A stretch of DNA of 64,000 nucleotides from Gammaproteobacteria bacterium RIFCSPHIGHO2_12_FULL_41_20 (GTDB lineage: Bacteria; Pseudomonadota; Gammaproteobacteria; DSM-16500). Where the stretch lies: contig MGYC01000030.1 of NCBI GenBank assembly GCA_001801575.1, positions 27,352-91,351 of the forward strand, read 5' to 3'. Below the pieces are notes generated by a model. The model was not told where the DNA came from and made no database searches. It was given only the letters and a program-made list of their open reading frames with translations. A program made the translations under genes and the position numbers. Positions 31,325-48,616 of this stretch are shown here, piece by piece (positions within the stretch are counted from its first letter, which is position 1; the number at the start of each line of letters is the position of its first letter).

Positions 31325-31388
31325 GGAGTAAAAGGTCTTCAAATAGACAAAGGCAACTATTAATAAAGCGCGAAACTCCTTAAGAAAA

Positions 31389-31420
31389 TTGCCCCATTTA
31401 GTACAAATATGGTACTGTAT
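31389..31420 (+). promoter_or_regulatory. suf promoter with SufR-type operator (copy 1)
   Basis: The palindrome AGTAC-AAATATG-GTACT (31400-31416) lies 25 bp before sufR. TTGCCC (31389-31394) and TACTGT (31413-31418) could be the -35 and -10 boxes, 18 bases apart, so a protein on the palindrome would block RNA polymerase. The same sequence stands before sufS (45496-45530). Rrf2-type regulators bind such inverted repeats, and sufR encodes one. Confidence 0.6.
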
Positions 31421-31440
31421 GCAGCCTTGACGAGGTGACC

Positions 31441-31872
31441 ATGCTCCGGATTAGTAAATTAACTGACTATGCGACATTAATTATGAGCCATTTGGCCATG
31501 CACACAGGAGGCGTGGAAAGTGCAGCAACCATCGCAGAGGCTTTGCATTTGGGGCTGCCAACAGTTAGTAAACTATTGAAATTATTGGCAGAGGCTAATT
31601 TGCTAATTTCTATGCGTGGTTCTGATGGTGGTTACCGTTTGGCACGTTCACCTGCTCACATTACCTTAGCGGAAGTGATTATCGCGATAGAGGGCGAAGT
31701 AGCTTTAACCCTATGTTGTGAAAGCGATAAACTGTGCGCGCTAACCATGACGTGTACTATCCAAGAGAATTGGAAGCGCATCAATCAGCTAATGCTAGGA
31801 TTTTTAGCACGATTTACCGTCAAGGATATGACTTCACCTTTGCAGTTAAAGAGTGAGGATTATGGCAAATAA
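31441..31872 (+). CDS. sufR: Rrf2-family SUF regulator
   Basis: This is an IscR-like, Rrf2-family repressor that senses Fe-S cluster status. The 143 residues open [19 protein letters not shown], then an HTH ([20 protein letters not shown]) and a wing ([17 protein letters not shown]). Cluster-ligand cysteines are in [17 protein letters not shown]. The start ATG 31441 follows GAGGTG; an in-frame GTG is two codons earlier. The gene end overlaps sufB by 11 bp. It likely represses its own operon through the palindrome at 31400-31416, and the second copy before sufS. Confidence 0.93.
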
Positions 31873-33304
31873 TTATTTAAAAGAAATTGTGAATAAAAGT
31901 TACCCTTACGGTTTTGTAACTGCCATTGAGTCTGATGCGTTAGCGCCCGGCTTAACCGAAGAGACAATACATGCGATTTGGGAAAAGAAAAAAGAGCCTG
32001 AATTTATGTTGGCATGGCGGTTACAAGCGTATCGTCATTGGTTGACAATGACGTCACCGCAATGGGCACATATTCAATATCCTGCGATTGATTATCAAAG
32101 TATTATTTATTATTCCGCGCCGCGAGCGAACAAAGAGGGACCTAAAAGTTTAGAAGATGTTGATCCAAAGCTATTAGAAACTTACAAGAAGTTAGGCATT
32201 CCATTGCATGAACAAGGTCGCTTAGCGGGGGTAGCCGTCGATGCTGTATTTGACAGCGTATCAGTCGCCACGACGTTCAAAGCCAAGTTAGCAGAAGCGG
32301 GAGTGATTTTTTGCCCTTTATCTGAAGCAGTGCAAACACACCCTGAGTTAGTGGAGAAATATTTGGGTTCCGTTGTCCCTTATCGCGATAATTTTTTTGC
32401 AGCGCTAAATTCAGCGGTGTTTAGCGATGGGTCTTTTGTTTATATCCCCAAAGGCGTGCGCTGTCCAATGGAGTTGTCTACGTATTTTCGGATTAATTCT
32501 GCGAAAACAGGGCAATTTGAACGCACCTTAATTATTGCCGATGAGGGAAGCTACGTTAGTTATTTAGAAGGGTGCACTGCACCAATGCGCGATGAAAATC
32601 AGCTGCATGCAGCTGTCGTTGAGTTAGTCGCTCTCGATAATGCGCAAATTAAATATTCTACCGTACAAAACTGGTATCCGGGGGACGAAAACGGTCGCGG
32701 AGGGATTTTTAATTTTGTAACTAAACGTGGGGCATGTCGGGGGGTGAAGTCAAAAATCTCTTGGACGCAGATTGAAACTGGATCAGCGATTACTTGGAAA
32801 TATCCGAGTGTGATTTTGCAAGGTGATGACTCTGTCGGCGAGTTTTACTCTGTAGCGTTGACGCATCATCACCAACAAGCAGATACTGGCACGAAAATGC
32901 TGCATATTGGCAAAAATACCCGTAGTACGATTATTTCTAAAGGTATTTCTGCCGGACATGGGCAAAACACCTATCGTGGCATGGTGCGCATGTTACCTAC
33001 CGCAGCGAATGCACGTAATTTTACCCAGTGTGATTCTTTATTATTGAGCGCGACTTGTGGTGCGCATACGTTTCCTTTTGTTGAAGCAAAAAATCCCACT
33101 GCGCATGTTGAGCATGAGGCAAGCACCTCGAAGATTGGTGAAGACCAATTGTTTTATTGTCGTCAACGTGGATTAAGTCAAGAAGATGCTGTGTCGATGA
33201 TTGTGAATGGATTTTGTAAACAAGTATTTAAAGAGTTACCGATGGAGTTTGCGGTGGAAGCACAAAAATTATTAGAAGTGAGTTTAGAGGGGAGTGTGGG
33301 CTAA
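31862..33304 (+). CDS. sufB: Fe-S cluster assembly scaffold SufB
   Basis: SufB is the main scaffold subunit of the SufBC2D complex on which Fe-S clusters form. The 480 residues match the family. Recognisable parts are [98 protein letters not shown] and the C-terminal [20 protein letters not shown]. Start ATG 31862 with GAGG upstream overlaps sufR. It abuts sufC, with 1 bp shared. Confidence 0.97.
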
Positions 33305-34071
33305 TGTTGTCGATTAACGGTTTACATGTTTCCATTCAAGATGAAAAGCAACAGGCAAAAACTATTTTGCGCGGGTTAAGTTTGCATATTAAGCCGGGCG
33401 AAGTGCATACGATTATGGGTCCTAATGGTTCAGGCAAGAGTACACTGGCAAATGTTTTAGCTGGTCGTACCGAGTATCAAGTACATGGCGGTCATGTAGA
33501 ATTTAATGGTGAAGATTTGCTTGCCTTAACACCCGAGGAGCGTGCTGCCAGAGGGCTATTCCTTGCTTTTCAATACCCAGTTGAAATCCCGGGTGTTAAT
33601 AATATGTATTTTTTGCGTACGGCATTAAATGGTGTGCGTAAACAGCGCGGCCTATCTCCTTTAGATGCAGCGGATTTTTTAACTTTAGTAAAAGCCAAAG
33701 CGCAAGAAGTTGGATTAAACGAAGCTTTTTTACAACGCGCTGTTAACGAAGGATTTTCTGGCGGAGAAAAAAAGCGTAACGAAATATTGCAAATGTTATT
33801 ACTAGAGCCGCGATTCGTCATATTAGATGAAACAGACTCAGGGCTAGATATTGACGCTTTGCAAATGGTAGCGCAATGCGTGAATCGTCATCGTAATGCT
33901 CAGCGTAGTGTATTAGTGGTGACCCATTATCAACGGTTGTTGGATTATATTGTGCCAGATGTGGTGCACGTGATGGTGAATGGTCGTATTTTAAAATCGG
34001 GCGATAAGAGCTTAGCATTAGAATTAGAAGCAAAGGGATATGGTTGGTTAGAAGCAGGAGAGATACGTTGA
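33304..34071 (+). CDS. sufC: Fe-S cluster assembly ATPase SufC
   Basis: SufC is the ABC ATPase that drives conformational change in SufBC2D. Its 255 residues have Walker A TIMGPNGSGKSTLANVLAG, the Q-loop region FLAFQYPVEIPGVNN, the ABC signature NEGFSGGEKKRNEILQMLLL, Walker B FVILDETDSGLDIDAL and the H-loop VVTHYQRLLDYI. ATG at 33304 overlaps the sufB stop by one base and its own stop overlaps the sufD ATG, so translation is coupled. Confidence 0.97.
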   Translation: MLSINGLHVSIQDEKQQAKTILRGLSLHIKPGEVHTIMGPNGSGKSTLANVLAGRTEYQVHGGHVEFNGEDLLALTPEERAARGLFLAFQYPVEIPGVNNMYFLRTALNGVRKQRGLSPLDAADFLTLVKAKAQEVGLNEAFLQRAVNEGFSGGEKKRNEILQMLLLEPRFVILDETDSGLDIDALQMVAQCVNRHRNAQRSVLVVTHYQRLLDYIVPDVVHVMVNGRILKSGDKSLALELEAKGYGWLEAGEIR

Positions 34072-35393
34072 TGAGCTTAGCCACGCCCTCTATTCCTGCT
34101 TGGCTTGCGGCCAGTTTGCAAGTTTTACCCGATACATCTGTGCCGTGGCTGCGTGATTTCCGCATGCAACAATGCGCAGCGGTTTTACAACAGGGCTTGC
34201 CTAAACGACGTGATGAACGTTGGCGGCAGACGGATTTGTCTATTTTTACCCAGACGGGGTTTCACGTACCTGAGAATACTAGCAAAGTTACGTGTGACGT
34301 AATTCGACAAATACGGCGCATAGACAGCGACGCCATTTTTTTATTGTTTATAAATGGGTGCTTTGTTCCACATTTATCGGATATCCATTTATTACCCAGC
34401 AATGCTATTGCTTGTAGTATACATGATGCCATATTACAGCATTCTGCCTTGCTACAAGCTTATTGGCAGCACGAGGTTGCTGTTCAGTCGCATCCGTTTG
34501 CGGGTATTAATGCGGCGTTATTTGCAGACGGGTTGTTTTTGTATTTGCCGCCGCAATGTCAATTGTCGGTGCCGGTGCATATTGTGCACTTGGTCAGTAA
34601 TCAGCAAGGGGTGATGGTACACCCACGCAATTTGATTGTTTTAGATGAGTATGCGCAACTAACCATTATCGAAGAGCATGTACATCATCATGCTTCACAC
34701 TATTGGAGCAATAGTGTAAATACCGTTGTTGCTGGTAAACGCGCGATACTGGAATATCACAAAGTATACAAAGCACATCCTACTGCATGTTATATTGCAT
34801 TAACGCAAGTAGAGCAAAAACAAGATAGTCGCTGTCGTTTTTATCATTTCTCTTCGCAAGCACAGGTTGTCCGTGATGATTTAATCGTCAAATTACAAGA
34901 AAAACATGCGGAGTGTGAGGCTAGAGGCTTTTATGGCTTAACCCAGCAGGATCAATCTATCACACATTTTGTGGAGATGGATCATCAAGCCCCACAATGT
35001 AAAAGCAATATGTTGTACAAAGGAGTATTACGCGAGCAATCAAAAGCGGCATTTCACGGTAAAGTGCTGGTACGAGAGCAGGCACAAAAAACTCAGGCCT
35101 ACCAAGCCAATCACCATTTGCTATTAACAATGGATGCGGAAGCAAGCTCGCGACCCGAATTAGAGATTTACGCCGATGATGTGCAATGTAAACATGGGGC
35201 AACCGTGGGGCAACTGGATGCAGATGCGTTGTTTTACCTTTGTTCGCGCGGGGTGAGCAGACAAGAAGCGGTGGGATTATTATTGTCTGGATTCGTGGAA
35301 GAGGTATTTGCGGATATAAACCCTATTGTTGCTGAGCAAATTCAGCTATTGTTAGATGAGTGGTTACAAAAAAGCCATGGCAGTGAGGCTTAA
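34071..35393 (+). CDS. sufD: Fe-S cluster assembly protein SufD
   Basis: SufD is the paralog of SufB completing SufBC2D and helping iron acquisition. The 440 residues have a weakly conserved N-terminal part (LPKRRDERWRQTDLSIF) and the conserved beta-helix: QGVMVHPRNLIVLDEYAQLT, AFHGKVLVREQAQKTQAYQA, LLLTMDAEASSRPELEIYAD, then DVQCKHGATVGQLDADALFY with the conserved Cys/His, and LLLSGFVEEVF. In close relatives sufS follows directly; here a polysaccharide island begins 130 bp later. Confidence 0.96.
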   Translation: MSLATPSIPAWLAASLQVLPDTSVPWLRDFRMQQCAAVLQQGLPKRRDERWRQTDLSIFTQTGFHVPENTSKVTCDVIRQIRRIDSDAIFLLFINGCFVPHLSDIHLLPSNAIACSIHDAILQHSALLQAYWQHEVAVQSHPFAGINAALFADGLFLYLPPQCQLSVPVHIVHLVSNQQGVMVHPRNLIVLDEYAQLTIIEEHVHHHASHYWSNSVNTVVAGKRAILEYHKVYKAHPTACYIALTQVEQKQDSRCRFYHFSSQAQVVRDDLIVKLQEKHAECEARGFYGLTQQDQSITHFVEMDHQAPQCKSNMLYKGVLREQSKAAFHGKVLVREQAQKTQAYQANHHLLLTMDAEASSRPELEIYADDVQCKHGATVGQLDADALFYLCSRGVSRQEAVGLLLSGFVEEVFADINPIVAEQIQLLLDEWLQKSHGSEA

Positions 35394-35424
35394 TGGGTAT
35401 AGCTATTGCGAAAATATAAATTAG

Positions 35425-35475
35425 CGTGAGTATTGTCTAAGAGTACAATATCATTTACGCGTGGCAATACTCACG
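35425..35475. repeat. Inverted repeat after sufD
   Basis: CGTGAGTATTG (35425-35435) and its perfect complement (35465-35475) are separated by 29 bases. The long loop and short T-run make it a poor classical terminator. It marks the junction between the first SUF half and the polysaccharide island. Confidence 0.5.
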
Positions 35476-35525
35476 TTTCAATTGCTAACATCATCTGCAT
35501 AAATTTATTGCTTAGGGGTTGATGT

Positions 35526-36572
35526 ATGATGGATCTTTTAAAATCATCCCAATATGAATGGAAAGATAACCTTTCCGCGGAAGAATGGGATACTATACTC
35601 TCGAAATTAAATGGTCATCCACTTCAGTCAGCTCAATGGGGTGACTCCAGAAAGTCTTCATGTGGTATCAATTATTATCGGTGGGTCGCATTCAAGGGCG
35701 GTATTCCTGTGTTTTTAGCACGACTAGAAGAAAGATATTATTTGAAATTTTTTAAAATCGCATGGATTCCTAAGGGCCCAGTAACTTTAGATTATAGTGA
35801 TAAGGTGATAGAAAAGGAGTTTTTACATCAACTGAAAAAAAAACAATTTATTTTATGTGTTACTAACCCATGGAGAAGAATAGAGCCTATTAATAACATA
35901 AATTCTTACTATTATACCGTATGGATCGATTTAACTGTGGGTAAAGAAAAACTCTGGATGAACCTTCAAAAACAATGTCGTAATGATATTAAACGCGCTA
36001 AAAAACTGGGTGTTGTGATCAGTCAATCGGATTCTTTGGATGATCTTAATGCATTCTATAGCATTTGCGAAAGGGTTAGCAAAAGCAAGGGGTTTAGCTT
36101 GGGCAATGCCCATAACACAATGCATCATTTATTATTAAATCAATATGATTGTGACAGTGTTAAATCACATCTCTTTCTTGCTCGGTATGAGGGCAATATT
36201 TGTGGCGGTGCTTTTTTGATGAGATGCGGTGAGGGTGTTCATTATCTTTGGGGCGCGGTTGATCGCAATAAATATTCACATTTTTGTATAGGCGAAGCTT
36301 TGCAATGGGGGATCATTGAATGGGCTTCAGATAACAATTATAAAAAATATGATCTTGAAGGAATCTCATCAAAACAAAATAGTGGGGTGGATCATTTCAA
36401 GAAAAAGCTAGGAGGTACCATAATTGCTTACCCAAATATTCAAGTTTATCCATTATGCTTTGGTCGCCGATTTATTGCTATTTTAATAAAAATCTATTTA
36501 TTTATTACACCCACAATAAAAATGACTCTATCCTCCCTTAAAAAAGAGCATAAAGGGGTCTGGGGGGTATAA
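35526..36572 (+). CDS. FemAB-like GNAT-fold acyl/aminoacyltransferase
   Basis: This 348-residue protein belongs to the FemAB/BioF2-like group with two GNAT-type halves. QSAQWGDSRKSSCGIN opens the first half, WMNLQKQCRNDIKRAKKLGV is the core FemAB helix, and FLARYEGNICGGAFLMRCGE plus KYDLEGISSKQNSGVDHFKK lies in the second half. Family members add amino acids to peptidoglycan, or modify exopolysaccharide in exosortase loci. Next to asnB and glycosyltransferases, an aminoacyl or acyl modification of a surface glycan seems likely. It is the first gene of the island, in a rightward run ending with the second GT2. Confidence 0.8.
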   Translation: MMDLLKSSQYEWKDNLSAEEWDTILSKLNGHPLQSAQWGDSRKSSCGINYYRWVAFKGGIPVFLARLEERYYLKFFKIAWIPKGPVTLDYSDKVIEKEFLHQLKKKQFILCVTNPWRRIEPINNINSYYYTVWIDLTVGKEKLWMNLQKQCRNDIKRAKKLGVVISQSDSLDDLNAFYSICERVSKSKGFSLGNAHNTMHHLLLNQYDCDSVKSHLFLARYEGNICGGAFLMRCGEGVHYLWGAVDRNKYSHFCIGEALQWGIIEWASDNNYKKYDLEGISSKQNSGVDHFKKKLGGTIIAYPNIQVYPLCFGRRFIAILIKIYLFITPTIKMTLSSLKKEHKGVWGV

Positions 36573-36596
36573 AGGTTATTACAAGGATCACTGATT

Positions 36597-38492
36597 GTGT
36601 GCGCCATCTCCGGTATAATAAGTACCATTCCTGACTATTATCATAGTTCTTTTTTGGAACCTATCTTAAAAGCCATGATACATCGAGGGCCAGATGGAAC
36701 CAAGATAGAAATGTTAGAAAATGCGGGTTGTATTGGCCATAATCGACTTTCCATCATCGATTTGAATAGCCGAGCTGAACAACCTATGTGGGACACATCA
36801 CGTCGATTTTGTTTAAGTTTTAATGGGGAAATTTATAATTTTAAATCTCTTAGAAAAACACTCCGACAACAAGGTGTACAATTTTATACAGAGTCAGACA
36901 GTGAGGTCTTGGTTCAGGCCTGGGCAAAATGGGAAATAAATTCCCTACCCCATTTAGTGGGTATGTTTGCATTTGCACTATGGGATAATAAACTTCAGCA
37001 ATTATATTTAGTCCGAGATCGCATGGGTGAAAAGCCCTTATATTATGCTCCGATTAAGAATAATTTTAAAAATGGTATTGTATTTGCTTCCGAATTAAAG
37101 GGATTAATTAAATATCCTTTTATTGAAAAAAATATTTCTATGACTGCATTGAGTCATTATCTTAGTTTTAATTACACTCGCACAGAAGATGCTATTTTTC
37201 AGAACATTTATAAATTACCGCCGGCGTCTATTCTTCAATATAATTTGAAAACCGATGAATTAAACACAAAAGAATACTGGTCATTATCAAGTCACTTTAA
37301 TAATAAAATGCATCTAAGCTTTGAAGATGCAAAAAATCAATTAATGGGTTTGTTATCTGAGACAATTAAAGAAAAAATGATAGCAGATGTGCCACTGGGT
37401 GCATTTTTATCGGGAGGAATTGACTCTGCCACAATCGTTAATCACATGGCTAGAAATCATACTAGAACAGTCAACACTTACAGTATAGGATTTAAAGAAA
37501 AATCTTACAATGAACTTCCCTTAAGCCAGCTCACAGCAAACTATTTAAGGACAAATCATCAAACCAGAATTGTTACACCCACTATTCGTGATCTTATTCC
37601 ACAGATTGTTTCTTCATTTGATGAGCCTTTTGCTGATACTTCATTAATCCCAACTTATTTCTTATGTGCTTTTGGAAGGCAATTTATTACTGTGAGCCTG
37701 TCTGGAGATGGCGGAGACGAATTATTTGGTGGTTATGCCACCTATCAGGCGGATCGATATCATCGCTATTTTCGGCACCTGCCTTTGTTTTTTAAGAATA
37801 AATTAATGAGGTGGGGTCGCCGTATCCCCACCTCTTTTAATAAAGTAAGTTTTGATTACAAAATCAAACAATTTTTATACGGAAATCTTTTAGATTTTGA
37901 AAATGCTCATTTAAGTTGGCGAGAAGTTTTTAGTGAAGAACATAAGAAACTTATATTTCGACCCTATTTACACGAAGTATTTAACTATGATGTTAGAGAA
38001 CTATCCCGCAGATGGTTTAAAGATGTCGAAAATTGCCATTATCTTGATCAAGCCATGTATGTTGATATGAAAACATGGTTGGTTGACGATATATTAATTA
38101 AAGTAGATCAAACTTCTATGTCTCATTCTCTGGAAGTGCGAGCGCCCTTTCTAGATCATAGGTTAGTGGAATTTGCAGCTAAACTACCCATTGATTACAA
38201 AATTTATCGCAGCAATGGAAAGCGAATTTTGAAAGAAAGCCATAAAGATCAATTACCCCAGTTTTTATTTCATAAAGCAAAAAAGGGATTTAATTGTCCT
38301 GTTTCATACTGGTTAACTCATGAACTTTATGAGATGGCGTATGAAATAACAACAAGGTCTCAGATGTCTCATTGGTTTAACATGGGGGAAATTGAAAAAT
38401 TGTGGTTTGAACATCTAAAAGGAGTATGTGACAATGGGTATCGTTTATTTAATTTATTTTGCTTAGGGCTTTGGTGCCAAGCATATGTTTAA
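36597..38492 (+). CDS. asnB: Asparagine synthase-like amidotransferase
   Basis: This is a glutamine-hydrolysing amidotransferase of 631 residues. The GTG start gives an N-terminal Met followed at once by the catalytic cysteine (MCAISGIIS). Class II glutaminase motifs RGPDGTKIEM and LSFNGEIYN follow. The synthetase domain has the PP-loop SGGIDSATIVNHMA and VSLSGDGGDELFGGYATY. In polysaccharide loci, members often amidate a sugar uronic acid (WbpS-like) or another acid rather than aspartate. Its place between a FemAB-like gene and a GT2 gene suggests that role, but true asparagine synthesis is not excluded. Confidence 0.88.
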   Translation: MCAISGIISTIPDYYHSSFLEPILKAMIHRGPDGTKIEMLENAGCIGHNRLSIIDLNSRAEQPMWDTSRRFCLSFNGEIYNFKSLRKTLRQQGVQFYTESDSEVLVQAWAKWEINSLPHLVGMFAFALWDNKLQQLYLVRDRMGEKPLYYAPIKNNFKNGIVFASELKGLIKYPFIEKNISMTALSHYLSFNYTRTEDAIFQNIYKLPPASILQYNLKTDELNTKEYWSLSSHFNNKMHLSFEDAKNQLMGLLSETIKEKMIADVPLGAFLSGGIDSATIVNHMARNHTRTVNTYSIGFKEKSYNELPLSQLTANYLRTNHQTRIVTPTIRDLIPQIVSSFDEPFADTSLIPTYFLCAFGRQFITVSLSGDGGDELFGGYATYQADRYHRYFRHLPLFFKNKLMRWGRRIPTSFNKVSFDYKIKQFLYGNLLDFENAHLSWREVFSEEHKKLIFRPYLHEVFNYDVRELSRRWFKDVENCHYLDQAMYVDMKTWLVDDILIKVDQTSMSHSLEVRAPFLDHRLVEFAAKLPIDYKIYRSNGKRILKESHKDQLPQFLFHKAKKGFNCPVSYWLTHELYEMAYEITTRSQMSHWFNMGEIEKLWFEHLKGVCDNGYRLFNLFCLGLWCQAYV

Positions 38493-38503
38493 GGAGTAAC
38501 AAG

Positions 38504-39373
38504 TTGAGATTACCCATTTCCATTGTGATCCCAGCTTATAATGAAGAGGAAGGGATTGGCAAGACAATTAATGAAATTAAGGCTGTTTGTTATAGTGCTA
38601 AAATAGAAATTTTTGAAATTATAGTTGTTAATGATGGCTCAACAGATAAAACGGAAGAGAAATTGAGAGACTTGGGCGTCTCTATTATCTCTCATCCTCA
38701 TAATATTGGCTACGGACGTTCACTCAAAGATGGAATCATTGCGGCTCAATATGACACCATTGTTATAACTGATGCGGATTGTACTTATCCTTTTAATAGG
38801 GTTCCTACCTTGCTTAAGGAATATAGTAAAGGCTTTGATATGGTGGTAGGAGCAAGAATGGGCAAGTATTATCAAGAATCTTTACTAAAAAACCCGCTAC
38901 GTCGAATTTTACGGTTCGTCGTCGAATTTAGTGCGGAGAGAAAAATTCCAGATATTAACTCCGGATTAAGAGTATTTAGTAAGGAGAAACTATTGCCGAT
39001 TTTACCCAAACTCTGTAATACGTTTAGTTTTACAACCTCCATGACGTTAGCATTTATGATGACAGGAAAATTTGTAAAATATATTGAAATTCCATATAAC
39101 AAACGTAATGGGCAAACAAAGGTAAGATTATTTAAAGATTCATTAAGAACTTTACAATATATTTTACAAGCCATTAATTATTATAATCCTTTAAAATTAT
39201 TTGTATTATTTGCAGCCTTTTGTCTCATATTATCTTTTTTATTCTTTTTCTTAGGTATTTTTACCCATTGGAAAACGCTTTTTTCTTTTGGAATTGGATC
39301 TGCTTTATTGAGTTTAGTTATACTATGTGTTGGTTTGTTGGCCGACTCCCTAAAACAAATTATTGATAAATAA
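38504..39373 (+). CDS. GT2 glycosyltransferase, DPM/GtrB-like
   Basis: This is a family 2 glycosyltransferase (about 289 residues) that probably moves a sugar from a nucleotide donor to undecaprenyl phosphate. ISIVIPAYNEEEGIGKTINE, VVNDGSTDKTEE and TDADCTYPF carry the nucleotide- and metal-binding acids. Two transmembrane helices end the protein (FVLFAAFCLILSFLFFF and a following one). I set the start at TTG 38504, which has AAGGAG seven bases upstream and gives the normal N-terminus; the frame is open further back into asnB. Confidence 0.85.
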   Translation: MRLPISIVIPAYNEEEGIGKTINEIKAVCYSAKIEIFEIIVVNDGSTDKTEEKLRDLGVSIISHPHNIGYGRSLKDGIIAAQYDTIVITDADCTYPFNRVPTLLKEYSKGFDMVVGARMGKYYQESLLKNPLRRILRFVVEFSAERKIPDINSGLRVFSKEKLLPILPKLCNTFSFTTSMTLAFMMTGKFVKYIEIPYNKRNGQTKVRLFKDSLRTLQYILQAINYYNPLKLFVLFAAFCLILSFLFFFLGIFTHWKTLFSFGIGSALLSLVILCVGLLADSLKQIIDK

Positions 39374-39375
39374 CT

Positions 39376-39447
39376 ATGAATGATATCATTATCGTGGGAT
39401 CAGGACCCGCAGGAATCCTTAAGAGCTCAAAAAGTTTTGAACAATAA
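39376..39447 (+). pseudogene. Remnant of an FAD/NAD-binding oxidoreductase
   Basis: A 23-codon frame starts MNDIIIVGSGPAGI, a textbook dinucleotide-binding N-terminus (GxGxxG), then diverges to LKSSKSFEQ and stops. The real protein would be hundreds of residues long (for example a GMC-type or UDP-galactopyranose mutase-like enzyme). The following 240 bp up to the flippase start hold only an unrecognised short open frame (39447-39644), probably debris. Confidence 0.55.
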
Positions 39448-39687
39448 TGCTGTACATAATGGATTCAAAAAATGCAATGGCTCAAATTTTTAGTGAGTGT
39501 AGTAATGATATTAAGTGTGTTGCAGATTTTTCTAAAAATTTAAATCCTGGATTTCGTTTATCAGATGACTCAAGTTTTCCAATAATAAATATTGATGATT
39601 TTGTTCAAAACTATGGGAAGAAACAATATTATATGCCATTGTAGATTAATTTTCAGTAAAATTAATAGGACGTTTTTTAGAACTTCC

Positions 39688-41208: not shown

Positions 41209-42236
41209 TCCGAATGGAAAAAGAAATAATGCAATGTTGGCAGTATCAGGATCCTCTTTTAGTAAGTATTGTGTGTTTTAGTTACAATCTGGAAAGATAC
41301 ATTGAAGATGCTATTAAAAGTTTTTTAGTTCAAGAAACGACTTTTCCGTTTGAAATTATCATTCATGATGATGCTTCGATAGACAGTACTCAAGAAATTA
41401 TAAAAGATTATGTAAAAAAATATCCTAATCTTATTAAGCCTATTTTTCAAAAAGAAAATCAATGTTCACAGCCTGGAAAAAATTTTCGGTTTATTCAGAC
41501 GATGGTTCTTCCTCAGGCGAGAGGAAAATATGTCGCCTTATGTGATGGGGATGATTGTTGGATCGATGCGAATAAATTACAAATTCAAGTAGAAGAAATG
41601 CAAAAAAACCCTAAGTGTCATATCAGTTTTCATCCTATCTTACTTAGATCTGATCACAAGCCGGATAAAATTGTGGCTAATCATACTTCACATCAAAAAA
41701 TATATCCGGTCAGAAAAGTAATCCTTGGCGGAGCTTTGTTTTGTCATACTTCTGCTACTATGATCAAAAAGGATGTTATTGATAATCTTCCAAAATGGTA
41801 TTTTGACGTTCAAATAGGTGATTATTTTCTACAGATTCTTGCGGCTTTGCCTAGTGGGGCACTTTACATTAACAAAGTAATGTCTGTGTACAGAACAGAT
41901 ACCATCAATGGTTGGTCAGAGAAAATGGCTAAAGAAAAAAACCGAGTTTATAATTATTTTATAGGCATGTTGGCATCTCTTGCAGATGTTGATGCATATA
42001 CCAATTTCGAGTATATGTCAGAATTTAATATTATCAGAAGAAAATTATGTTTTTCTATGTGTAGAAACCCAGTATTTTCTCTTGAAGAAAGGAGGGAAAT
42101 TTATCTTCAATATCGAGATAAATTGGATTTAAAAGATAAAATTATCTGGTATTTAGTTTATAACAATCAACTGATTTTTAAATGGGTTCATAAACTAGAA
42201 AAACAAATAAGAAGATCTCCGCTTATTAGTCGTTGA
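41205..42236 (+). CDS. GT2 family glycosyltransferase
   Basis: This is a family 2 glycosyltransferase, 343 residues. LVSIVCFSYNLERYIEDAIK, IIHDDASIDSTQEII and YVALCDGDDCWI (the DxD-like metal site) define the GT-A fold. The C-terminal part is basic and probably peripheral to the membrane. Start ATG 41205 overlaps the flippase stop (ATGA), so the two are coupled; ATG 41214 is possible. Its 3' end overlaps the convergent galU by 11 bp. Confidence 0.87.
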   Translation: MIRMEKEIMQCWQYQDPLLVSIVCFSYNLERYIEDAIKSFLVQETTFPFEIIIHDDASIDSTQEIIKDYVKKYPNLIKPIFQKENQCSQPGKNFRFIQTMVLPQARGKYVALCDGDDCWIDANKLQIQVEEMQKNPKCHISFHPILLRSDHKPDKIVANHTSHQKIYPVRKVILGGALFCHTSATMIKKDVIDNLPKWYFDVQIGDYFLQILAALPSGALYINKVMSVYRTDTINGWSEKMAKEKNRVYNYFIGMLASLADVDAYTNFEYMSEFNIIRRKLCFSMCRNPVFSLEERREIYLQYRDKLDLKDKIIWYLVYNNQLIFKWVHKLEKQIRRSPLISR

Positions 42237-43119
42237 TGCTAATTTGCCAACGCTTAAGCATGCGTTTAAAATCATTTTTTAATGTGGGATGTTGTAATGC
42301 ATAAGCAATGGTTGCTTCTAAATAGCATACTTTATCACCACAATCGTAGTGATTTCCAGGAATTTTCATTGCAAATACGCGTTCTTTTTTAATTAGTGCA
42401 TCAATAGCATCCGTTAATTGATATTCTCCATTTTTTCCAGGAGAGATCGTATTTAGGCAATGGAAAATTTCAGGAGTTAAAATATATCGACCGACAATGC
42501 CATGATTTGATGGAGCGTCTTTGGGTTTTGGTTTTTCTACAATAGCGTTGATTTCAAAAAAACTTTGATCTACTATTTTTTCTGTTGGCTTAACAACGCC
42601 ATATTGTTCGGCGTGTTGTTTTTCAAACAAATTAACTGCAACGATGCTTTGTTGTGTTTCCTTGAATATTTCTACCATGACTTGTAAACAGTTTTTTGGT
42701 TTAGCATCTATTAAATCATCAGCCAAAATAACAGCAAATGCCTCATTACCTATAAAAGGTTCTGCACACAGTATGGCATGTCCAAGCCCCAATGCTTGTG
42801 ATTGACGAATATAGGCACAACGAAGATAAGAAGGTAAAATATTTCTGACAATTTCTAATAACTCACTTTTTTCTTGCTGTCCCAGTTTAGTTTCTAACTC
42901 CACATTAGAGTCAAAGTGATCTTCAATGGGACGTTTGGTTTCGCTTGTAATAAAAATTATTTCAGTGAATCCCGCAGCAATGGCTTCTTCTACTGCATAC
43001 TGAATAAGAGGTTTATCAACAATGGGAAGCATTTCTTTAGGCGTTGCTTTGGTGGCAGGTAGAAAACGAGTGCCAAGACCAGCGACAGGAAATATTGCTT
43101 TTTTTAATCTTAACGTCAT
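42226..43119 (-). CDS. galU: UTP-glucose-1-phosphate uridylyltransferase GalU
   Basis: GalU makes UDP-glucose for polysaccharides. The 297 residues have AIFPVAGLGTRFLPATKATP near the start, MLPIVDKPLIQYAVEEAIAA, ILADDLIDAKP and a C-terminal CGDKVCYLEATIAYALQHP, all diagnostic. It is read opposite to the island's main direction and overlaps the preceding GT2 gene tail to tail. A palindromic repeat lies upstream (43204-43274). Confidence 0.96.
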   Translation of the reverse strand: MTLRLKKAIFPVAGLGTRFLPATKATPKEMLPIVDKPLIQYAVEEAIAAGFTEIIFITSETKRPIEDHFDSNVELETKLGQQEKSELLEIVRNILPSYLRCAYIRQSQALGLGHAILCAEPFIGNEAFAVILADDLIDAKPKNCLQVMVEIFKETQQSIVAVNLFEKQHAEQYGVVKPTEKIVDQSFFEINAIVEKPKPKDAPSNHGIVGRYILTPEIFHCLNTISPGKNGEYQLTDAIDALIKKERVFAMKIPGNHYDCGDKVCYLEATIAYALQHPTLKNDFKRMLKRWQISIND

Positions 43120-43203
43120 GAAATAAGATCCCTCAATATTTTCTTATCGGGTATAGATTAATTAAGTTTAAGAATAAATTCAATGATAAAACGTTAAATC
43201 TTA

Positions 43204-43274
43204 TATACTCGAAATTTTTCAATTTTAGGTGGTTAAAATGACAGATTGCCAGAGATTGAAACGCTTCAGGTATA
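43204..43274. repeat. Palindromic repeat family A, long form
   Basis: This 71-bp copy runs from TATACTCGAAATTTTTC to GAAACGCTTCAGGTATA and contains TTTTAGGTGGTTAAAATGAC followed by AGATTGCCAGAGATTG, which the 53-bp copy at 8909-8961 lacks. Its right end supplies the last codons and stop of the membrane protein gene at 43266. Confidence 0.75.
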
Positions 43275-44552
43275 TTTGGCAGTTAGAAGTGTTTTGCCTA
43301 ATAAGCCTCCTAAACAGAAAATCAAAAAATAAGAATAAAAAGAATAAGAAGGTAAGAGTGGTTCAAAAATTGCTACAAAAGCAGTATTAACTAATATTGT
43401 TAAAAGAGAAAGCCATATATAAATAGAGTAAAAACTAGTATTTCCATTGCGTGGTATAAAAATACGAATACTGGATGTAAAAAAAGCAATAAAGAAAAAT
43501 AAAAAAATGGAAATGTCTCCAAAAAAAGAAATTAATTTCCAAAAATAAAATAGCGAATTCTCTTTTATTGCATGCCAATAAAGTACTTTACTGATATTTA
43601 GCGCAATAGCTTCTTTTTGGTAGGTAGCTATTTCTCCAAGGATTGAGTCATTTGCTTGTAAAATAGATGGATAAACAGCTGTATAATATGCATAAGTTGC
43701 ATGAAACCCTTGTGCTGGTTTCATTGCAAGCATAGAAGAATTTTTAGTAAGTTTTAGTTCTTCCAGTTGTTTGATTAGGGACAGGAAAAGATTTTTTTCT
43801 GTACTATTTTCAAAAAATTGCGCTGCATCGGTATTGGATAAAAAAAGTGCTTGAACAATTAGTTGAGTTCCAATAAATGGAACATCTGCAAAATGACCAT
43901 GTTTTAAAAGATGGTAACTACGATTGATAATGGCAGTTGCAGTAATAGAAAGTATCATGATGAGTAAGGTAAGGAAGATTTTTTTTATAGGGATTTTTTT
44001 CCATCCATACCATGCTACTAATAGCATAAATAAGAAGTAAAAATAATAAAACTGAGCGCGTGTTAATATAAGGATGTTAGTAAAAATGACTAATAAAATT
44101 AGTTTTTTTATATTAAAAGTATAAAAACACTCTACGAGCAATGAAAAAGTAACAATAAAAACAGGAAATGCAATTGCTTCCGAGCATATTGTTTGCAGTG
44201 TCTGATAATAAATAAAAATTAAGGACACAGTAAGCAATAAGATGAATAAAATAGATAGTCCTGATATAAGCAGATGCTTATGTAACCATCTGCTTATATA
44301 TAATAAGGACAACAATGAAAAAACACACTGAACCCACATGACTATTTCAAGTTGATGTTTTCCAAATCCACGAAATAGCCAAACAAAAGTAGGGTATATG
44401 GGAGGTCTTGTTGCGTAGGAAAAGATATAGGAGGTGGAATCGAAATCTAGTTTAGGAGCTGATTCAAAAACGTATGCTATTAATAAGAGACATACTGCTA
44501 CAATTGGGCTCCAAAACATTAGCTTATTATGCATGCGATCGCTATTAATCAT
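43266..44552 (-). CDS. Polytopic membrane protein, GT-C glycosyltransferase-like
   Basis: This 428-residue protein has about ten predicted transmembrane helices. LDFDSTSYIFSYATRPPIYP near residue 35 resembles the first periplasmic loop of GT-C enzymes (mannosyltransferase or ArnT-like), where acidic residues bind the lipid-linked donor. It is probably a membrane glycosyltransferase using polyprenyl-phosphate sugar, which fits the GT2/DPM-like enzyme nearby, but the family match is loose. AGGAAAG precedes the ATG. It is divergent from the methyltransferase gene, and its last codons fall in a palindromic repeat. Confidence 0.6.
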   Translation of the reverse strand: MINSDRMHNKLMFWSPIVAVCLLLIAYVFESAPKLDFDSTSYIFSYATRPPIYPTFVWLFRGFGKHQLEIVMWVQCVFSLLSLLYISRWLHKHLLISGLSILFILLLTVSLIFIYYQTLQTICSEAIAFPVFIVTFSLLVECFYTFNIKKLILLVIFTNILILTRAQFYYFYFLFMLLVAWYGWKKIPIKKIFLTLLIMILSITATAIINRSYHLLKHGHFADVPFIGTQLIVQALFLSNTDAAQFFENSTEKNLFLSLIKQLEELKLTKNSSMLAMKPAQGFHATYAYYTAVYPSILQANDSILGEIATYQKEAIALNISKVLYWHAIKENSLFYFWKLISFFGDISIFLFFFIAFFTSSIRIFIPRNGNTSFYSIYIWLSLLTILVNTAFVAIFEPLLPSYSFYSYFLIFCLGGLLGKTLLTAKYT

Positions 44553-44691
44553 ATATTTTCTTTCCTGAAAGTTTTAATAGAATTTGCGTTCCATTTACCT
44601 GTAAGTTATAAGATCTATTGTGAGAAGGAGAGTTTTTGTTTTCAATAGCCATATTCTGAATAAAACCATTGATTAAGTAAAGGAATTGTTC

Positions 44692-45363
44692 ATGTCAATA
44701 GATAACTATGCTATGCAAAAACCAGGAGGATTGATTGATCGATTAGCATTGAAAAAAAGATTGCAAATGTTACAGGTTTTTTTAAAGGAATTTCCGGAGA
44801 ATACTTTTAATCAGGTGTTAGATGTGGGAGTTACAGCGGAGAAAAATTCAATTTCATCTAATTTTTTTGAAAAATATTTTCCTAATAAAAATAAAATTAT
44901 TGCATTTTCTACGCAAGACGCTTCTTTTCTCGAAAAAATATATACGGGTTTAATATTTAAAATGGGTGATGTAAAAAAATCGCCTTTTCGTGATGGGGAA
45001 ATCGATATTGTATTTTCATCCGCAGTAATTGAGCATGTAGGCTCCTTAAACAATCAAAAGCAAATGCTTGCAGAATGTTATCGTATTGCAAAAAAGGGTG
45101 TTTTTATCACTACACCTAATCGATGGTATCCCGTTGACCTTCATACCATATTGCCTTTGATTCATTGGCTACCTAAAAAACTTCATCGAATAATTCTTAA
45201 AATGATTGGATTACCTTTTTATTCTACTGAAAAAAACTTAAATTTACTGGACGAAAATAATCTCCGTCATTTTTGTAAGGAATTAAATATTCAAAATTTT
45301 ACCGTGAAAAAAATTACTACATTTGGTTTTGTCAGTAATTTGATGTTGATTATTAAAAAGTAA
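44692..45363 (+). CDS. Class I SAM-dependent methyltransferase
   Basis: This is a Rossmann-fold methyltransferase, about 223 residues. NQVLDVGVTAEKNSIS is a variant motif I, FKMGDVKKSPFRDGEIDIVF carries the acidic motif and motif II, and AECYRIAKKGVFITTPNRW is the usual Methyltransf_11 strand 5 region. The substrate is probably a sugar or glycan of the adjacent island but cannot be seen. I chose ATG 44692 with AAAGGAA upstream; a TTG six bases earlier is less likely. It is the last island gene before the second SUF half. Confidence 0.78.
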   Translation: MSIDNYAMQKPGGLIDRLALKKRLQMLQVFLKEFPENTFNQVLDVGVTAEKNSISSNFFEKYFPNKNKIIAFSTQDASFLEKIYTGLIFKMGDVKKSPFRDGEIDIVFSSAVIEHVGSLNNQKQMLAECYRIAKKGVFITTPNRWYPVDLHTILPLIHWLPKKLHRIILKMIGLPFYSTEKNLNLLDENNLRHFCKELNIQNFTVKKITTFGFVSNLMLIIKK

Positions 45364-45433
45364 TATATAAATATGTGTTACGCAGTCTGCATAATGTCAA
45401 CCTTTGTTATAATTGCTACCCTGATTTGAACCA

Positions 45434-45460
45434 TGCCAAAAAATGGCACCTGTTTTTTTT
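45434..45460 (+). terminator. Possible intrinsic terminator after the methyltransferase
   Basis: TGCCA (45434-45438) and TGGCA (45444-45448) form a short stem around five adenines, followed four bases later by eight thymines (45453-45460). The stem is weak, so this is tentative. It would separate the island from the sufS promoter. Confidence 0.35.
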
Positions 45461-45495
45461 AAAGGAGATCACACTGCAAGATACGATTTACAAAA

Positions 45496-45530
45496 AATTC
45501 CCAAATTAGTACAAATATGGTACTGTATAC
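45496..45530 (+). promoter_or_regulatory. suf promoter with SufR-type operator (copy 2)
   Basis: AGTAC-AAATATG-GTACT at 45508-45524 is identical to the palindrome before sufR. Similarity continues on both sides over about 45 bases (AAAATT-CCC upstream, CCTT downstream). It lies about 38 bp before sufS, so sufS-sufU and the rest could be a second SufR-controlled unit after the operon was split. Confidence 0.6.
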
Positions 45531-45561
45531 ATCCTTAATGAATAAAGACAGATAAAAGCCA

Positions 45562-46797
45562 ATGATAAGCGAAATGGCCAAATTAGATCCTTACATTGTA
45601 CGAGCCGATTTTCCTATTTTGCAGATCCAGAACCGCGGTAAGCCATTGATTTATTTAGATACATCGGCTTCAGCGCAGAAACCACACCAGGTAATCGATG
45701 CGATACAGCATTACTATACGCATCAACATGCCAATATTCATCGTGGTGTATATGAATTATCTGAGCAGGCAACGCAAGTTTTTGAAGGTGTGCGCCATCA
45801 AGTAAAGTCATTTATTAATGCGCAACATGCTGAAGAAATTATTTTTGTGCGTGGTACTACGGAGGCGATTAATTTAGTCGCACATAGTTATGGGCGCTCG
45901 CGTTTTCAGCCAGGGGATGAAATTGTGGTAAGCGTCATGGAGCATCATTCGAATATTGTGCCGTGGCAAATGGTTGGTGAAGTAACAGGCGCGGTGTTGC
46001 GTGTGATTCCAATGGCGGATACGGGTGAGTTAGATTTAGACGCGTATCGCCAGTTATTAACCGCGCGTACTAAATTAATCGCTGTGACCCATATTTCAAA
46101 CGTATTAGGGACAATTAACCCCATTAAGGAGATAACGGCTTTAGCACATGCACAACAGATTCCTGTATTGGTGGATGGTGCGCAGGCGGCACCATTTTTC
46201 CCGGTGGATGTGCAAGCGCTAGATTGTGATTTTTATGCTTTCTCTAGTCACAAAATGTATGGTCCGACGGGGGTGGGTGTTTTATACGGGAAAAAAGCCT
46301 TGTTAGAGACTATGCCGCCGTATCAAGGCGGTGGCGATATGATAGAGACAGTATCGTTTGCTAAAACAACCTATGCCAAATTACCCAATAAATTTGAAGC
46401 GGGCACACCGAATATAGCTGCGGTTGTGGGGTTAGGTGCGGCTATCCGTTACTTGCAAATACTAGGGATGGAAAATATTGCGAGCCATGAACAAGAATTA
46501 TTGCATTATGCGACAGAACAATTACAAGCTATAGCAGGGCTGCGTATCTTCGGGACAGCTAAACATAAGGCCGGTGTGATTGCGTTTGTAGTTGATGATA
46601 TTCACCCACATGATATCGCGACGGTATTAGATCATGCAGGCATTGCAGTGCGGGCGGGACATCACTGTGCTATGCCATTAATGGAACGGCTACATGTGCC
46701 AGCGACAGTGCGTGTGTCATTAGGTTTATACAATACTCGAGAAGAGATAGATCAATTAATGGTTGGACTTCAACAAGTCAAGAGGTTATTTGGCTAA
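45562..46797 (+). CDS. sufS: Cysteine desulfurase SufS
   Basis: SufS takes sulfur from cysteine for cluster assembly. The 411-residue PLP enzyme has YLDTSASAQKP, the NIHRGVYELSEQAT segment, HHSNIVPW, the PLP-lysine SSHKMYGPTGVGVLYG, and the active-site cysteine in VRAGHHCAMPLM, all typical of group II (SufS) enzymes. ATG 45562 or ATG 45574 could be the start. The stop overlaps the sufU ATG by one base. It belongs with sufBCD but is about 10 kb away. Confidence 0.96.
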   Translation: MISEMAKLDPYIVRADFPILQIQNRGKPLIYLDTSASAQKPHQVIDAIQHYYTHQHANIHRGVYELSEQATQVFEGVRHQVKSFINAQHAEEIIFVRGTTEAINLVAHSYGRSRFQPGDEIVVSVMEHHSNIVPWQMVGEVTGAVLRVIPMADTGELDLDAYRQLLTARTKLIAVTHISNVLGTINPIKEITALAHAQQIPVLVDGAQAAPFFPVDVQALDCDFYAFSSHKMYGPTGVGVLYGKKALLETMPPYQGGGDMIETVSFAKTTYAKLPNKFEAGTPNIAAVVGLGAAIRYLQILGMENIASHEQELLHYATEQLQAIAGLRIFGTAKHKAGVIAFVVDDIHPHDIATVLDHAGIAVRAGHHCAMPLMERLHVPATVRVSLGLYNTREEIDQLMVGLQQVKRLFG

Positions 46798-47243
46798 TGT
46801 CAGAATTGCGAGAGTTGTATCAAGAAATGATTTTGGATCATGGCCGACATCCGCGTAATTTTGGTGTATTGCCTCACGCTAATTATCATAAAGAAGGATT
46901 TAATCCACTGTGTGGCGATAAGATTAGCCTATATCTCTGTGAAAAGGCCGGCGTGGTTGAAGATGTAGGTTTTGATGGCTGCGGTTGTGCAATTTCTATG
47001 GCTTCAGCATCGTTAATGACAGAGGCAATTAAAGGTAAAACCACACAAGAAGCTGCGCGATTGTTTACAGATTTTCATGTATTAGTAACGGGGTTGCCAG
47101 TGGAAGATATGACACGTTTAGGCAAGTTAGTGGTATTTAGCGGTGTTGCTGCCTATCCAGTTAGGGTGAAGTGCGCCATTTTAGCCTGGCATGTGTTGCA
47201 GGCGCTATTAAAGAATGATGCCGCGACAGTAAGTACCGAGTAG
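46797..47243 (+). CDS. sufU: SufU/IscU-type sulfur-relay or scaffold protein
   Basis: This 148-residue IscU-fold protein accepts sulfur from SufS (zinc-dependent SufU role) or serves as a scaffold. The start LRELYQEMILDHGRHPRNFG, the three conserved cysteines in NPLCGDKI, DGCGCAISMASASLMTEAI and VKCAILAWHVL, and the GKT-linker are typical of SUF-linked members. It is translationally coupled to sufS. Confidence 0.93.
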   Translation: MSELRELYQEMILDHGRHPRNFGVLPHANYHKEGFNPLCGDKISLYLCEKAGVVEDVGFDGCGCAISMASASLMTEAIKGKTTQEAARLFTDFHVLVTGLPVEDMTRLGKLVVFSGVAAYPVRVKCAILAWHVLQALLKNDAATVSTE

Positions 47244-47305
47244 CGGGCTTCCTCTCCCCCAAGTATGTGGGCGTGAGGGAATAACAAGGGATACGCAGGT
47301 AAATC

Positions 47306-47353
47306 CCCTCTCCCCCACGTTGTTAGCGGGGGAGAGGGTCAGGGTGAGAGGGG
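47306..47353. repeat. REP-like hairpin repeat between sufU and A-type carrier
   Basis: CCCTCTCCCCC (47306-47316) pairs with GGGGGAGAGGG (47328-47338), followed by TCAGGGTGAGAGGGG. It is related to the hairpin at 19462-19494. It fills most of the sufU to A-type carrier gap and could stabilise or attenuate the transcript. Confidence 0.8.
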
Positions 47354-47376
47354 GGTAGAGAGGTGACGAGAAACGT

Positions 47377-47718
47377 ATGATTACATTAACTGAAGCAGCA
47401 GCAGCTTACATTAAAACGTTGCTAAAGAAAAAAGGCGATAACGCTGAATTTCGTTTATCACTAAAAAAAACCGGTTGCTCTGGGTTTAGTTATGCCCCTG
47501 ATATCGTAACATCCATTAAGGCTCAGGATAAATGTGTAAAGACAGATAAAGGTTTCAACGTCTATCTCGATACGCAATATGTAGATTATTTACAAGGCTT
47601 AACCATAGATTACCGTGAAGAAGCTAACATGGGGTTAAAACAAAAACGACTTATATTTATTAACCCCAATGAAGATGGCCGTTGTGGTTGTGGTGAAAGT
47701 TTTCATATAGAGAAATAA
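47377..47718 (+). CDS. A-type Fe-S carrier (SufA/IscA/ErpA-like)
   Basis: This HesB/IscA-fold protein of 113 residues carries newly made clusters to targets. The three conserved cysteines are in KKTGCSGFSY and GRCGCGESF, and the starting ITLTEAAAAYIKTLLKK is typical. In SUF operons it is usually called SufA; IscA and ErpA cannot be excluded. sufT follows after 1 bp. Confidence 0.93.
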   Translation: MITLTEAAAAYIKTLLKKKGDNAEFRLSLKKTGCSGFSYAPDIVTSIKAQDKCVKTDKGFNVYLDTQYVDYLQGLTIDYREEANMGLKQKRLIFINPNEDGRCGCGESFHIEK

Positions 47719-47719
47719 T

Positions 47720-48262
47720 ATGTTTCATACCGAAATGTCCGTAGAAATACAACGTGATTGCGATGCGACATTAATTCCATCAGGAGATAAAGTGAGTGTC
47801 AAGCAGGGCACGCCTGTACTCATTACACAAATGTTAGGCAGTTCCTATACCGTTTATGTGAATGGCAACTTGGTACGTATAGCTGGTAAAGATGGAGATG
47901 CATTAGGGTTAGTGGTGATGGAAGAAGAAGATATTAATGCGGGGCCAGGAACCGTTGAAGATAAAGTATGGAGACAGTTAAAAACCTGCTTTGATCCAGA
48001 AATACCCGTGAATATTGTAGATCTGGGATTAGTTTATACATGCCAAGTTATCCCTTTTGCCAAAGATAGCTATCGCGTAGAAATTGAAATGACATTAACA
48101 GCACCTGGTTGTGGTATGGGCCCGGTATTAGCCAATGATGTAGAAGAAAAAATTCGCCAAATTCATGATGTGGTGGAAGTAAAAGTCGCGGTTGTGTTTG
48201 ATCCGCCTTGGGATCGTAGTATGGTTAGCGATGCAGCGAAGTTACAATTAGGGTTATTATAA
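47720..48262 (+). CDS. sufT: SUF-associated Fe-S maturation protein SufT
   Basis: SufT has a small N-terminal domain (IPSGDKVSVKQGTPVLITQM) and a C-terminal MIP18/DUF59 domain (DPEIPVNIVDLGLVYTCQV, then LTAPGCGMGPVLANDVEEKI, FDPPWDRSMVSDAAKLQLGL). DUF59 proteins help insert clusters into target enzymes. The 180-residue length and the position after an A-type carrier match other SUF operons. Confidence 0.92.
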   Translation: MFHTEMSVEIQRDCDATLIPSGDKVSVKQGTPVLITQMLGSSYTVYVNGNLVRIAGKDGDALGLVVMEEEDINAGPGTVEDKVWRQLKTCFDPEIPVNIVDLGLVYTCQVIPFAKDSYRVEIEMTLTAPGCGMGPVLANDVEEKIRQIHDVVEVKVAVVFDPPWDRSMVSDAAKLQLGLL

Positions 48263-48304
48263 CGAGCATAAAATGAGACTATAATTTTCTGAGGAGGTTA
48301 ATGA

Positions 48305-48616
48305 ATGACTATTCAAGATACGATTAAGCAACAGATTACTGAAAATCCCGTTATTCTTTATATGAAGGGCTCAGCAGAAATGCCATTATGTGGATTTTCA
48401 GCCAAAGCAGTTAACCTGTTGAAGAGTTGCGGTGTAAAATTTGCTACGGTCAATATTTTAGATAATTCAGAAATACGCCAAGGCATTAAAGAGTATTCTA
48501 ATTGGCCAACCTTGCCACAGCTGTATGTAAACGGTGAATTTGTGGGTGGCTGCGATATTATGACGGAAATGTATGAAAGTGGGGAGTTGCAGGAGTTGGT
48601 GAAGGATGTGCAATAA
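48305..48616 (+). CDS. grxD: Monothiol glutaredoxin (Grx4 type)
   Basis: This 103-residue CGFS-type glutaredoxin binds and passes [2Fe-2S] clusters with glutathione. PLCGFSAKAVNLLK holds the active site and WPTLPQLYVNGEFVGGCDIM is the conserved glutathione-binding part. A strong GAGGAGG precedes the ATG. It follows sufT by 42 bp and likely ends the second SUF transcription unit, converging on an mgtC-like gene. Confidence 0.95.
   Translation: MTIQDTIKQQITENPVILYMKGSAEMPLCGFSAKAVNLLKSCGVKFATVNILDNSEIRQGIKEYSNWPTLPQLYVNGEFVGGCDIMTEMYESGELQELVKDVQ

Follow-up and report, generated by a model that had tools for sequence, protein, structure and literature searches.

Regulators of the genes for iron-sulfur (Fe-S) cluster assembly have been described in several bacteria. 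RisR from Myxococcus xanthus, a repressor of the Rrf2 family, is encoded before sufB, represses as the holo-protein, and has been footprinted on the palindrome T(t/g)GAC-N7-GTCC(t/a), which overlaps the promoter hexamers (PMC9973013). Escherichia coli IscR recognizes two types of sites, and its apo form activates suf (PMC9973013). The cyanobacterial protein referred to as SufR is of the DeoR type and binds CAAC-N6-GTTG (PMC8593673), and the cluster of Streptomyces NsrR is held by three cysteines and Asp8 (PMC5411485). Operons that have been split by inserted genes and that carry further copies of a riboswitch are known from lysine biosynthesis (PMC5584792). Described in this report is a suf locus of Gammaproteobacteria bacterium RIFCSPHIGHO2_12_FULL_41_20 in which sufR-B-C-D (31441-35393) and sufS-U-A-T-grxD (45562-48616), named by NCBIfam profiles, lie apart, each preceded by a predicted promoter-operator. 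The window analyzed is a stretch of 64,000 nucleotides (contig MGYC01000030.1, positions 27,352 to 91,351), and all positions given are those of the window. A block of ~10 kb, made up mostly of predicted glycan genes, was likely inserted into the operon, and a 54-base promoter-operator, P2, was likely copied from the promoter-operator of sufR, P1. Both halves would thus be kept under the same predicted Fe-S-sensing repressor. The probability of this reading is estimated at roughly 0.8.

Both promoter-operators are on the forward strand, P1 at 31380-31433 and P2 at 45488-45541. The palindrome AGTACAAATATGGTACT is found exactly in each of them, at 31400-31416 and 45508-45524, respectively. The initial annotation had placed this palindrome before both sufR and sufS and had claimed an extended similarity of about 45 bases; both features are indeed present, with P1 and P2 being identical at 44 of 54 bases (81%). 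Outside of the 54 bases the similarity stops (16 of 60 positions upstream and 11 of 60 downstream), and the second-best match of the 54-mer within the window is 30/54. The motif AGTACN7GTACT, with zero or one mismatch allowed, occurs nowhere else in the window. It is found exactly at four places in the genome, and the spacer AAATATG accompanies it at P1 and P2 only. The largest repeat family listed in the window is the P1/P2 pair itself. On the basis of the window scan, the operator model described below, and the next-best score of the 54-mer, a chance origin of the palindrome was rejected. The promoter hexamers were assigned by eye from family-wide conservation. P1 displays a -35-like TTGCCC at 31389-31394 and an extended -10 element, TGGTACTGT, at 31410-31418. 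The same extended -10 element is positioned at 45518-45526 in P2, where ATT takes the place of the TTG of P1 and the nearest -35-like hexamer is TTCCCA (45498-45503), 17 bases before TACTGT.

Within the family, sufR is preceded by AGTAC-N7-GTACT, either exact or altered at one or two positions. The consensus of 22 aligned relatives is nTTGCnnTAATCAGTACAAATATGGTACTGTATG, in which the TTG was read by eye as the -35 region and TGGTACTGT, located in and just after the right half-site, as the extended -10. Such an extended -10 would explain the conservation of the ATG in the spacer. Because it overlaps the palindrome, a bound repressor would cover the -10, and repression by occlusion is therefore predicted. 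An operator model, R1, was built from the sites of the 22 relatives, with no site of the window included, and was run on 36 family genomes with at most 150 first-look candidates scored per genome. For the present genome (150 of 624 candidates scored), the model returned P1 with E=4.5e-10, P2 with E=1.0e-8, and a third site with E=0.41. Exactly one site below 1e-5 was found in each of 24 other SufR-bearing family genomes; 22 of these sites had been used to train the model, and those of G023 and G030 had not. Among five genomes with a readable locus and no SufR match (G001, G002, G020, G033, and G034), a strong site is kept only by G002, in a count that includes three genomes of 64-76% completeness and relatives that are not independent of one another. 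This pattern of presence and absence ties the palindrome, as the putative operator, to SufR. In G002 the strong operator (L156:8533-8575) lies 23 bases before sufB, and in G020 there is a weakened operator (L161:10106-10148). G001, G033, and G034 contain neither SufR nor a strong site and, together with G002 and G020, may represent stages of regulator loss.

The situation before sufS is quite different. No operator was observed there in 29 of 29 family genomes, the best candidates agreeing at 5-7 of the 10 palindrome positions, and in these genomes sufD and sufS overlap or are, by estimate, no more than 84 bases apart. The notion that a site before sufS was already present in the relatives was accordingly rejected, and P2 therefore arose in the present lineage.

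The two groups of suf genes had initially been annotated as the halves of one normally continuous operon, and the gene order in relatives had been chosen beforehand as a comparison by which the insertion reading could be refuted. The claim is borne out by both the gene names and the gene order. The distance between sufB and sufS was compared in 35 family relatives and in a class sample, namely an even draw of 143 genomes including the present one, to which a stricter threshold was applied (sufS match 1e-100). Among the genomes that have the two genes on a single contig in the same orientation, all 27 of the family and all 63 others of the class show a distance of 1.4-3.6 kb. The corresponding value for the present genome is 12.3 kb. 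Of the 30 family genomes with a strong sufS match, 3 are not counted, their genes being on different contigs, and neither are the 5 of 35 that have no such match. The class count leaves out 12 of 76 sufS-bearing genomes (genes on separate contigs or on opposite strands, or sufB unmatched) and, in addition, 14 genomes with sufB but without a sufS match at 1e-100. The outer gene order of the window is shared as well. In the relatives (31 family genomes), folC, folKP, and folB, often with akr, are found 5' of sufR, and mgtC, often with tgt, coq7, and rdgB, is found 3' of grxD. The folB and mgtC markers both surround a continuous operon on one stretch in 15 of the 31 genomes, and most of the remaining stretches break off where the contig or the stretch itself ends, or are without one of the markers. 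Given that the neighbors of the split operon surround a continuous one in relatives, the insertion appears to have been a clean one exactly between sufD and sufS, and the island was likely inserted into a once-continuous operon.

The ranking of the promoter-operators bears on the origin of P2. When 25 sites were compared over 77 bases, the P1-P2 pair, with 51 identities, ranked first of 300 pairs, with the power of the ranking limited by the short and AT-rich nature of the sites. The best pair of relatives shares 47 positions, P1 shares at most 45 with any relative, and P2 at most 46. Of the 47 columns under weak constraint, 25 are identical between P1 and P2, with no more than 20 identical to any relative and no more than 21 between relatives. 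Since P1 and P2 are the closest of the 300 pairs, descent of P2 from the P1 of its own lineage is favored over convergence. Of the two alternatives put forward in the initial annotation, that the promoter was duplicated or that the second copy evolved in place, the first is thus the better supported. The spacer AAATATG is by itself weak evidence for copying, because several relatives have it too.

The extent of the copied segment is another matter. Outside of the core the promoters of the relatives are not conserved, and for that reason a 54-base copy and a larger duplication that was later trimmed are not separable. The latter is a variant of the favored reading with a bigger copy. A larger suf duplication, or a plasmid-type integration, would have placed a second promoter-sufRBCD unit beside the island, after which the redundant sufRBCD would have been deleted and P2 fused to sufS. 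Such a course would dispense with the transposition of a tiny promoter, and the match of P2 to P1 comes as close as 7 bases to the start codon of sufR, as a leader deletion would leave it. An exact deletion would be required, however, for P2 ends 20 bases before sufS and no sufR, sufB, sufC, or sufD coding sequence is left in between. It is regarded here as a possible course of events, albeit not the expected one.

If, on the other hand, P2 had evolved independently before sufS, with selection rebuilding SufR control after the split, the conserved letters would be precisely those that selection for SufR binding and for the extended -10 would fix anyway, and the missing TTG of P2 would be accommodated. 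P1 and P2 share the full spacer and the weakly constrained flanking letters (25 of the 47 variable columns), however, and convergence over 54 bases at 81% identity is not expected, such that an independent origin is considered unlikely. Similar odds are assigned to the possibility that P2 is a promoter whose palindrome is idle, SufR control having been lost. The differing -35 region of P2 and the site persisting without SufR in G002 are in keeping with an idle palindrome, but all ten palindrome positions have been kept in spite of the divergence of the 54-mer to 44/54, and a strong site is missing in four of the five relatives that have a readable locus but no SufR match. Finally, a mis-assembly, in which a foreign 10-kb piece was spliced into the operon, is highly improbable. 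In its favor are the 41 contigs of the assembly and the single genome of the genus in the sets searched, but two independent false joins would be required, the estimated contamination is 0.27, both flanks run on into the neighbors that flank the operon in relatives, and P2 is closest to the P1 of the genome itself.

Several points weigh against insertion with promoter copying as proposed here. P2 is missing the TTG that almost all relatives have at the -35 position, and neither P1 nor P2 is among the promoters listed by a consensus scan. The control of P2 by SufR is predicted from the sequence, and G002 keeps its operator without a SufR match. The power of the pair ranking is limited, as noted above, and the extent of the original copy is unreadable because the sufR promoters of relatives are not conserved outside of the 54 bases. 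There is no tRNA in the window, family searches with the eight island proteins revealed no mobility gene, and of the 20 largest repeat families, out of at least 60, none bounds the island. The outer gene order is not universal; a 20-kb stretch of G027 is without any flank marker, and akr, mgtC, or tgt is missing in several relatives. Moreover, the split is known from one assembly. The sets searched contained no other genome of the genus, and hence the event can be placed no more precisely than after the divergence from the genera sampled.

The regulator itself is encoded by sufR at 31441-31872 on the forward strand. It is an Rrf2-type SUF regulator with 144.1 bits to TIGR02944 (cut-off 110.65), the sole such match in the genome, and 104.7 bits to the Rrf2 family PF02082. 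Its score with the IscR family is 64.6 bits versus a cut-off of 207.55. All 58 aligned SufR-like sequences have Asp9, Cys92, Cys99, and Cys105, in an alignment that included duplicate contigs and left out matches below 95 bits. The aspartate and the three cysteines align with those of Streptomyces NsrR (5n07), so that the residues characteristic of the NsrR type are all in place and a [4Fe-4S] cluster in SufR is predicted.

The remaining suf genes, likewise on the forward strand and assigned with NCBIfam, follow in the order described for the operon. The first half continues with sufB (31853-33304) and sufC (33304-34071) and is closed by sufD (34071-35393). The second half opens with sufS (45562-46797) and sufU (46797-47243). 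These are followed by a gene for a SufA-type carrier (47377-47718), whose product lies below the SufA cut-off (106.7 bits versus 136.2), and by sufT (47720-48262). The half is closed by grxD (48305-48616), which codes for a Grx4-type glutaredoxin and comes after sufT in the relatives as well.

A working model for the split operon can be put forward. When clusters are plentiful, holo-SufR would sit on the palindromes of P1 and P2, over the extended -10, and RNA polymerase would be shut out. When iron or clusters are short, apo-SufR would leave both P1 and P2, and the two transcripts would rise together. As the repressor is encoded in the first half only and would be made from P1 only, the second half would follow the first. 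In this manner, one autoregulated operon would have become a two-promoter regulon. A search with the SufS sequence matched nothing in the genome but SufS itself. There are seven Aminotran_5 matches in total, the second of which is phosphoserine transaminase; the other five are weak (18-37 bits) and at the family level only. Since no other convincing cysteine desulfurase was found in the genome, the loss of the sufS promoter would probably be lethal or nearly so, and the cost of losing sufS expression would provide a reason for P2 being kept. It is probable that the insertion could persist only if the promoter copy came along with it or immediately before it.

The inserted island extends from 35394 to 45487, is 10.1 kb in length, and contains eight genes. 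Its GC content of 0.33, as compared to 0.41 for the rest of the window, and its absence from the sufD-sufS position in relatives are as expected for a horizontally acquired genomic island, and the galU that it carries is a second copy. The genes are not uniformly oriented. Encoded on the forward strand are a FemAB/GNAT-like aminoacyl or acyl transferase (35526-36572, by family match), an asparagine-synthase-type amidotransferase of the exopolysaccharide kind (36597-38492), and a GT2 glycosyltransferase with a C-terminal hydrophobic part of the polyprenyl-phosphate type (38459-39373). These are followed on the same strand by a Wzx-like polysaccharide flippase (39592-41208; PF01943 at 26 bits, just below the cut-off of 28.2) and a second GT2 glycosyltransferase (41205-42236, by family match). 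Two genes are on the reverse strand, a second galU, galU2 (42226-43119), and that for a membrane protein (43266-44552), which is hydrophobic by eye and without a Pfam or NCBIfam match. The last gene, again on the forward strand, encodes an S-adenosylmethionine (SAM) methyltransferase (44686-45363, by family match). The initial annotation had described the island as roughly 10 kb of glycan genes. This holds for most of it, but the methyltransferase and the membrane protein show no glycan-family match of their own.

The membrane protein contains 428 residues and is possibly a polymerase or a polyprenyl-dependent glycosyltransferase. The amidotransferase-GT2 pair recurs at G016:C8:4074-6847 (L235) in a relative of another genus, where the glycosyltransferase is 77% identical and adjoins the amidotransferase, which is 64-65% identical. 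The two genes there overlap by 34 bases, as in the island, and lie close to genes for relatives of the island membrane protein, one of them 37% identical. In light of these neighboring genes with 64% and 77% identity in G016, the gene pool is partly shared within the family. There are two galU genes in the genome, that of the island and one at G000:C9:12700-13560, and their products are 60% identical. The presence of this other galU on contig C9 led to the rejection of a reading in which the island would be a native galU region that had moved.

Two stem structures lie on the forward strand near the ends of the island. A long hairpin located 3' of sufD (35426-35474) is a possible terminator or processing site, with only a short T run after it. 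It has a minimum free energy of -27 kcal/mol over a 108-base stretch (z of -2.8) and is not among the terminators of the consensus scan. It is single copy in the genome, and for this reason it was rejected as a repeated insertion scar. Just 5' of P2 is a terminator-like stem (45434-45448) with T8 after four bases. Read-through from the methyltransferase gene may be limited by this stem, which is a consensus match only. Five co-directional glycan genes come after the sufD hairpin. If the hairpin fails to terminate, these five genes would now be partly under SufR. A further step, namely that glycan synthesis was captured into an iron- and Fe-S-responsive transcript, with the five genes 3' of sufD having no clear terminator before them and the copied 54-base P2 rescuing the essential sufS half, is doubtful. 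If true, an essential operon under its own control could survive an insertion by becoming a two-promoter regulon, by means of a minimal and portable SufR promoter module.

Other breaks in suf were examined as well. Among 80 loci on genome contigs, sufD stands directly before sufS in 68, 2 are too short, and 10 are not so arranged; in 8 of these 10 (L102 and L131 not included), 6-7 of the 10 palindrome positions are found before sufS. Four clear splits in the class (G082, G084, G109, and G130) show only 7 of the 10 positions before sufS, and there was thus no support for a second operator at other split suf loci. The four splits are a weak control, however, because in three of them no site can be read next to sufB either, and in G084 the motif has diverged. 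In G130 there is an independent break between sufC and sufD, on different contigs (C10:43647-45071 and C56:113713-114906) and far from the contig ends.

How an essential autoregulated operon can come apart and still be controlled is usually a matter of conjecture from the final arrangement. In the present case one can read off the order in the ancestor, the precise site of insertion, the regulator, and the two operators, and also that relatives lack the second operator, which makes it testable whether a promoter copy accompanies an operon break or must precede it. In addition, a comparative footprint is gained for the operator of the TIGR02944 SUF regulators, a name not found in the RisR paper (PMC9973013). 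The motif AGKAC-N7-GTMCT scores 9 or 10 of 10 before Rrf2-type sufR in 26 of 38 loci, with full scores in L080, L081, L104, L108, L123, L135, and L138. The six loci scoring 7 or less are those with weak sufR matches (72 bits or less). AGGAC-N7-GTCCT is also found, irrespective of the adjoining gene, in five acidobacterial contigs (L100, L105, L112, L118, and L128).

The splitting of operons with an extra regulatory element is already known, and what is new here is a clean version with a protein operator. The open-access literature searched yielded no description of a split suf operon in which the operator is duplicated. The present locus goes back to a continuous ancestral order, and the regulatory element in front of its detached half is missing from relatives. 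In the lysine case an unrelated gene has been inserted (a cyclic glucan synthetase gene in Clostridium tetani), and in some genomes, such as that of Leuconostoc, the regulatory element stands before the detached part (PMC5584792). The element there is an RNA switch, whereas here it is a protein operator that is fused with the core promoter and is nearer to the first copy than to the site of any relative. With regard to the regulator, E. coli IscR is likewise an Rrf2 Fe-S sensor that exerts feedback on Fe-S assembly genes (isc and suf), but the present SufR falls below the IscR cut-off, and IscR activates suf as the apo form. The cyanobacterial and actinobacterial SufR proteins share with it the name and the role of suf autorepressor; they belong to the DeoR family and recognize CAAC-N6-GTTG, whereas the present protein is of the Rrf2 family with a different operator and is thus not a SufR of the cyanobacterial type. 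RisR shares several features with the present SufR. In both cases an Rrf2 repressor with three cysteines is encoded just before sufB, a palindrome with a 7-base spacer lies over the promoter, which is a predicted one here, and one regulator serves, or in the present case would serve, two promoters of Fe-S assembly genes. The half-site is AGTAC here versus T(t/g)GAC for RisR, with cores of TAC-N7-GTA and GAC-N7-GTC, respectively. L080 and L081, which are outside of the family, carry AGGAC-N7-GTCCT before sufR, a bridge between the two motifs, and regulators of the TIGR02944 type may share one operator code near that of the Myxococcus RisR site. RisR controls two machineries, ISC and SUF, whereas the two promoters considered here belong to a single SUF operon that has been cut in two.

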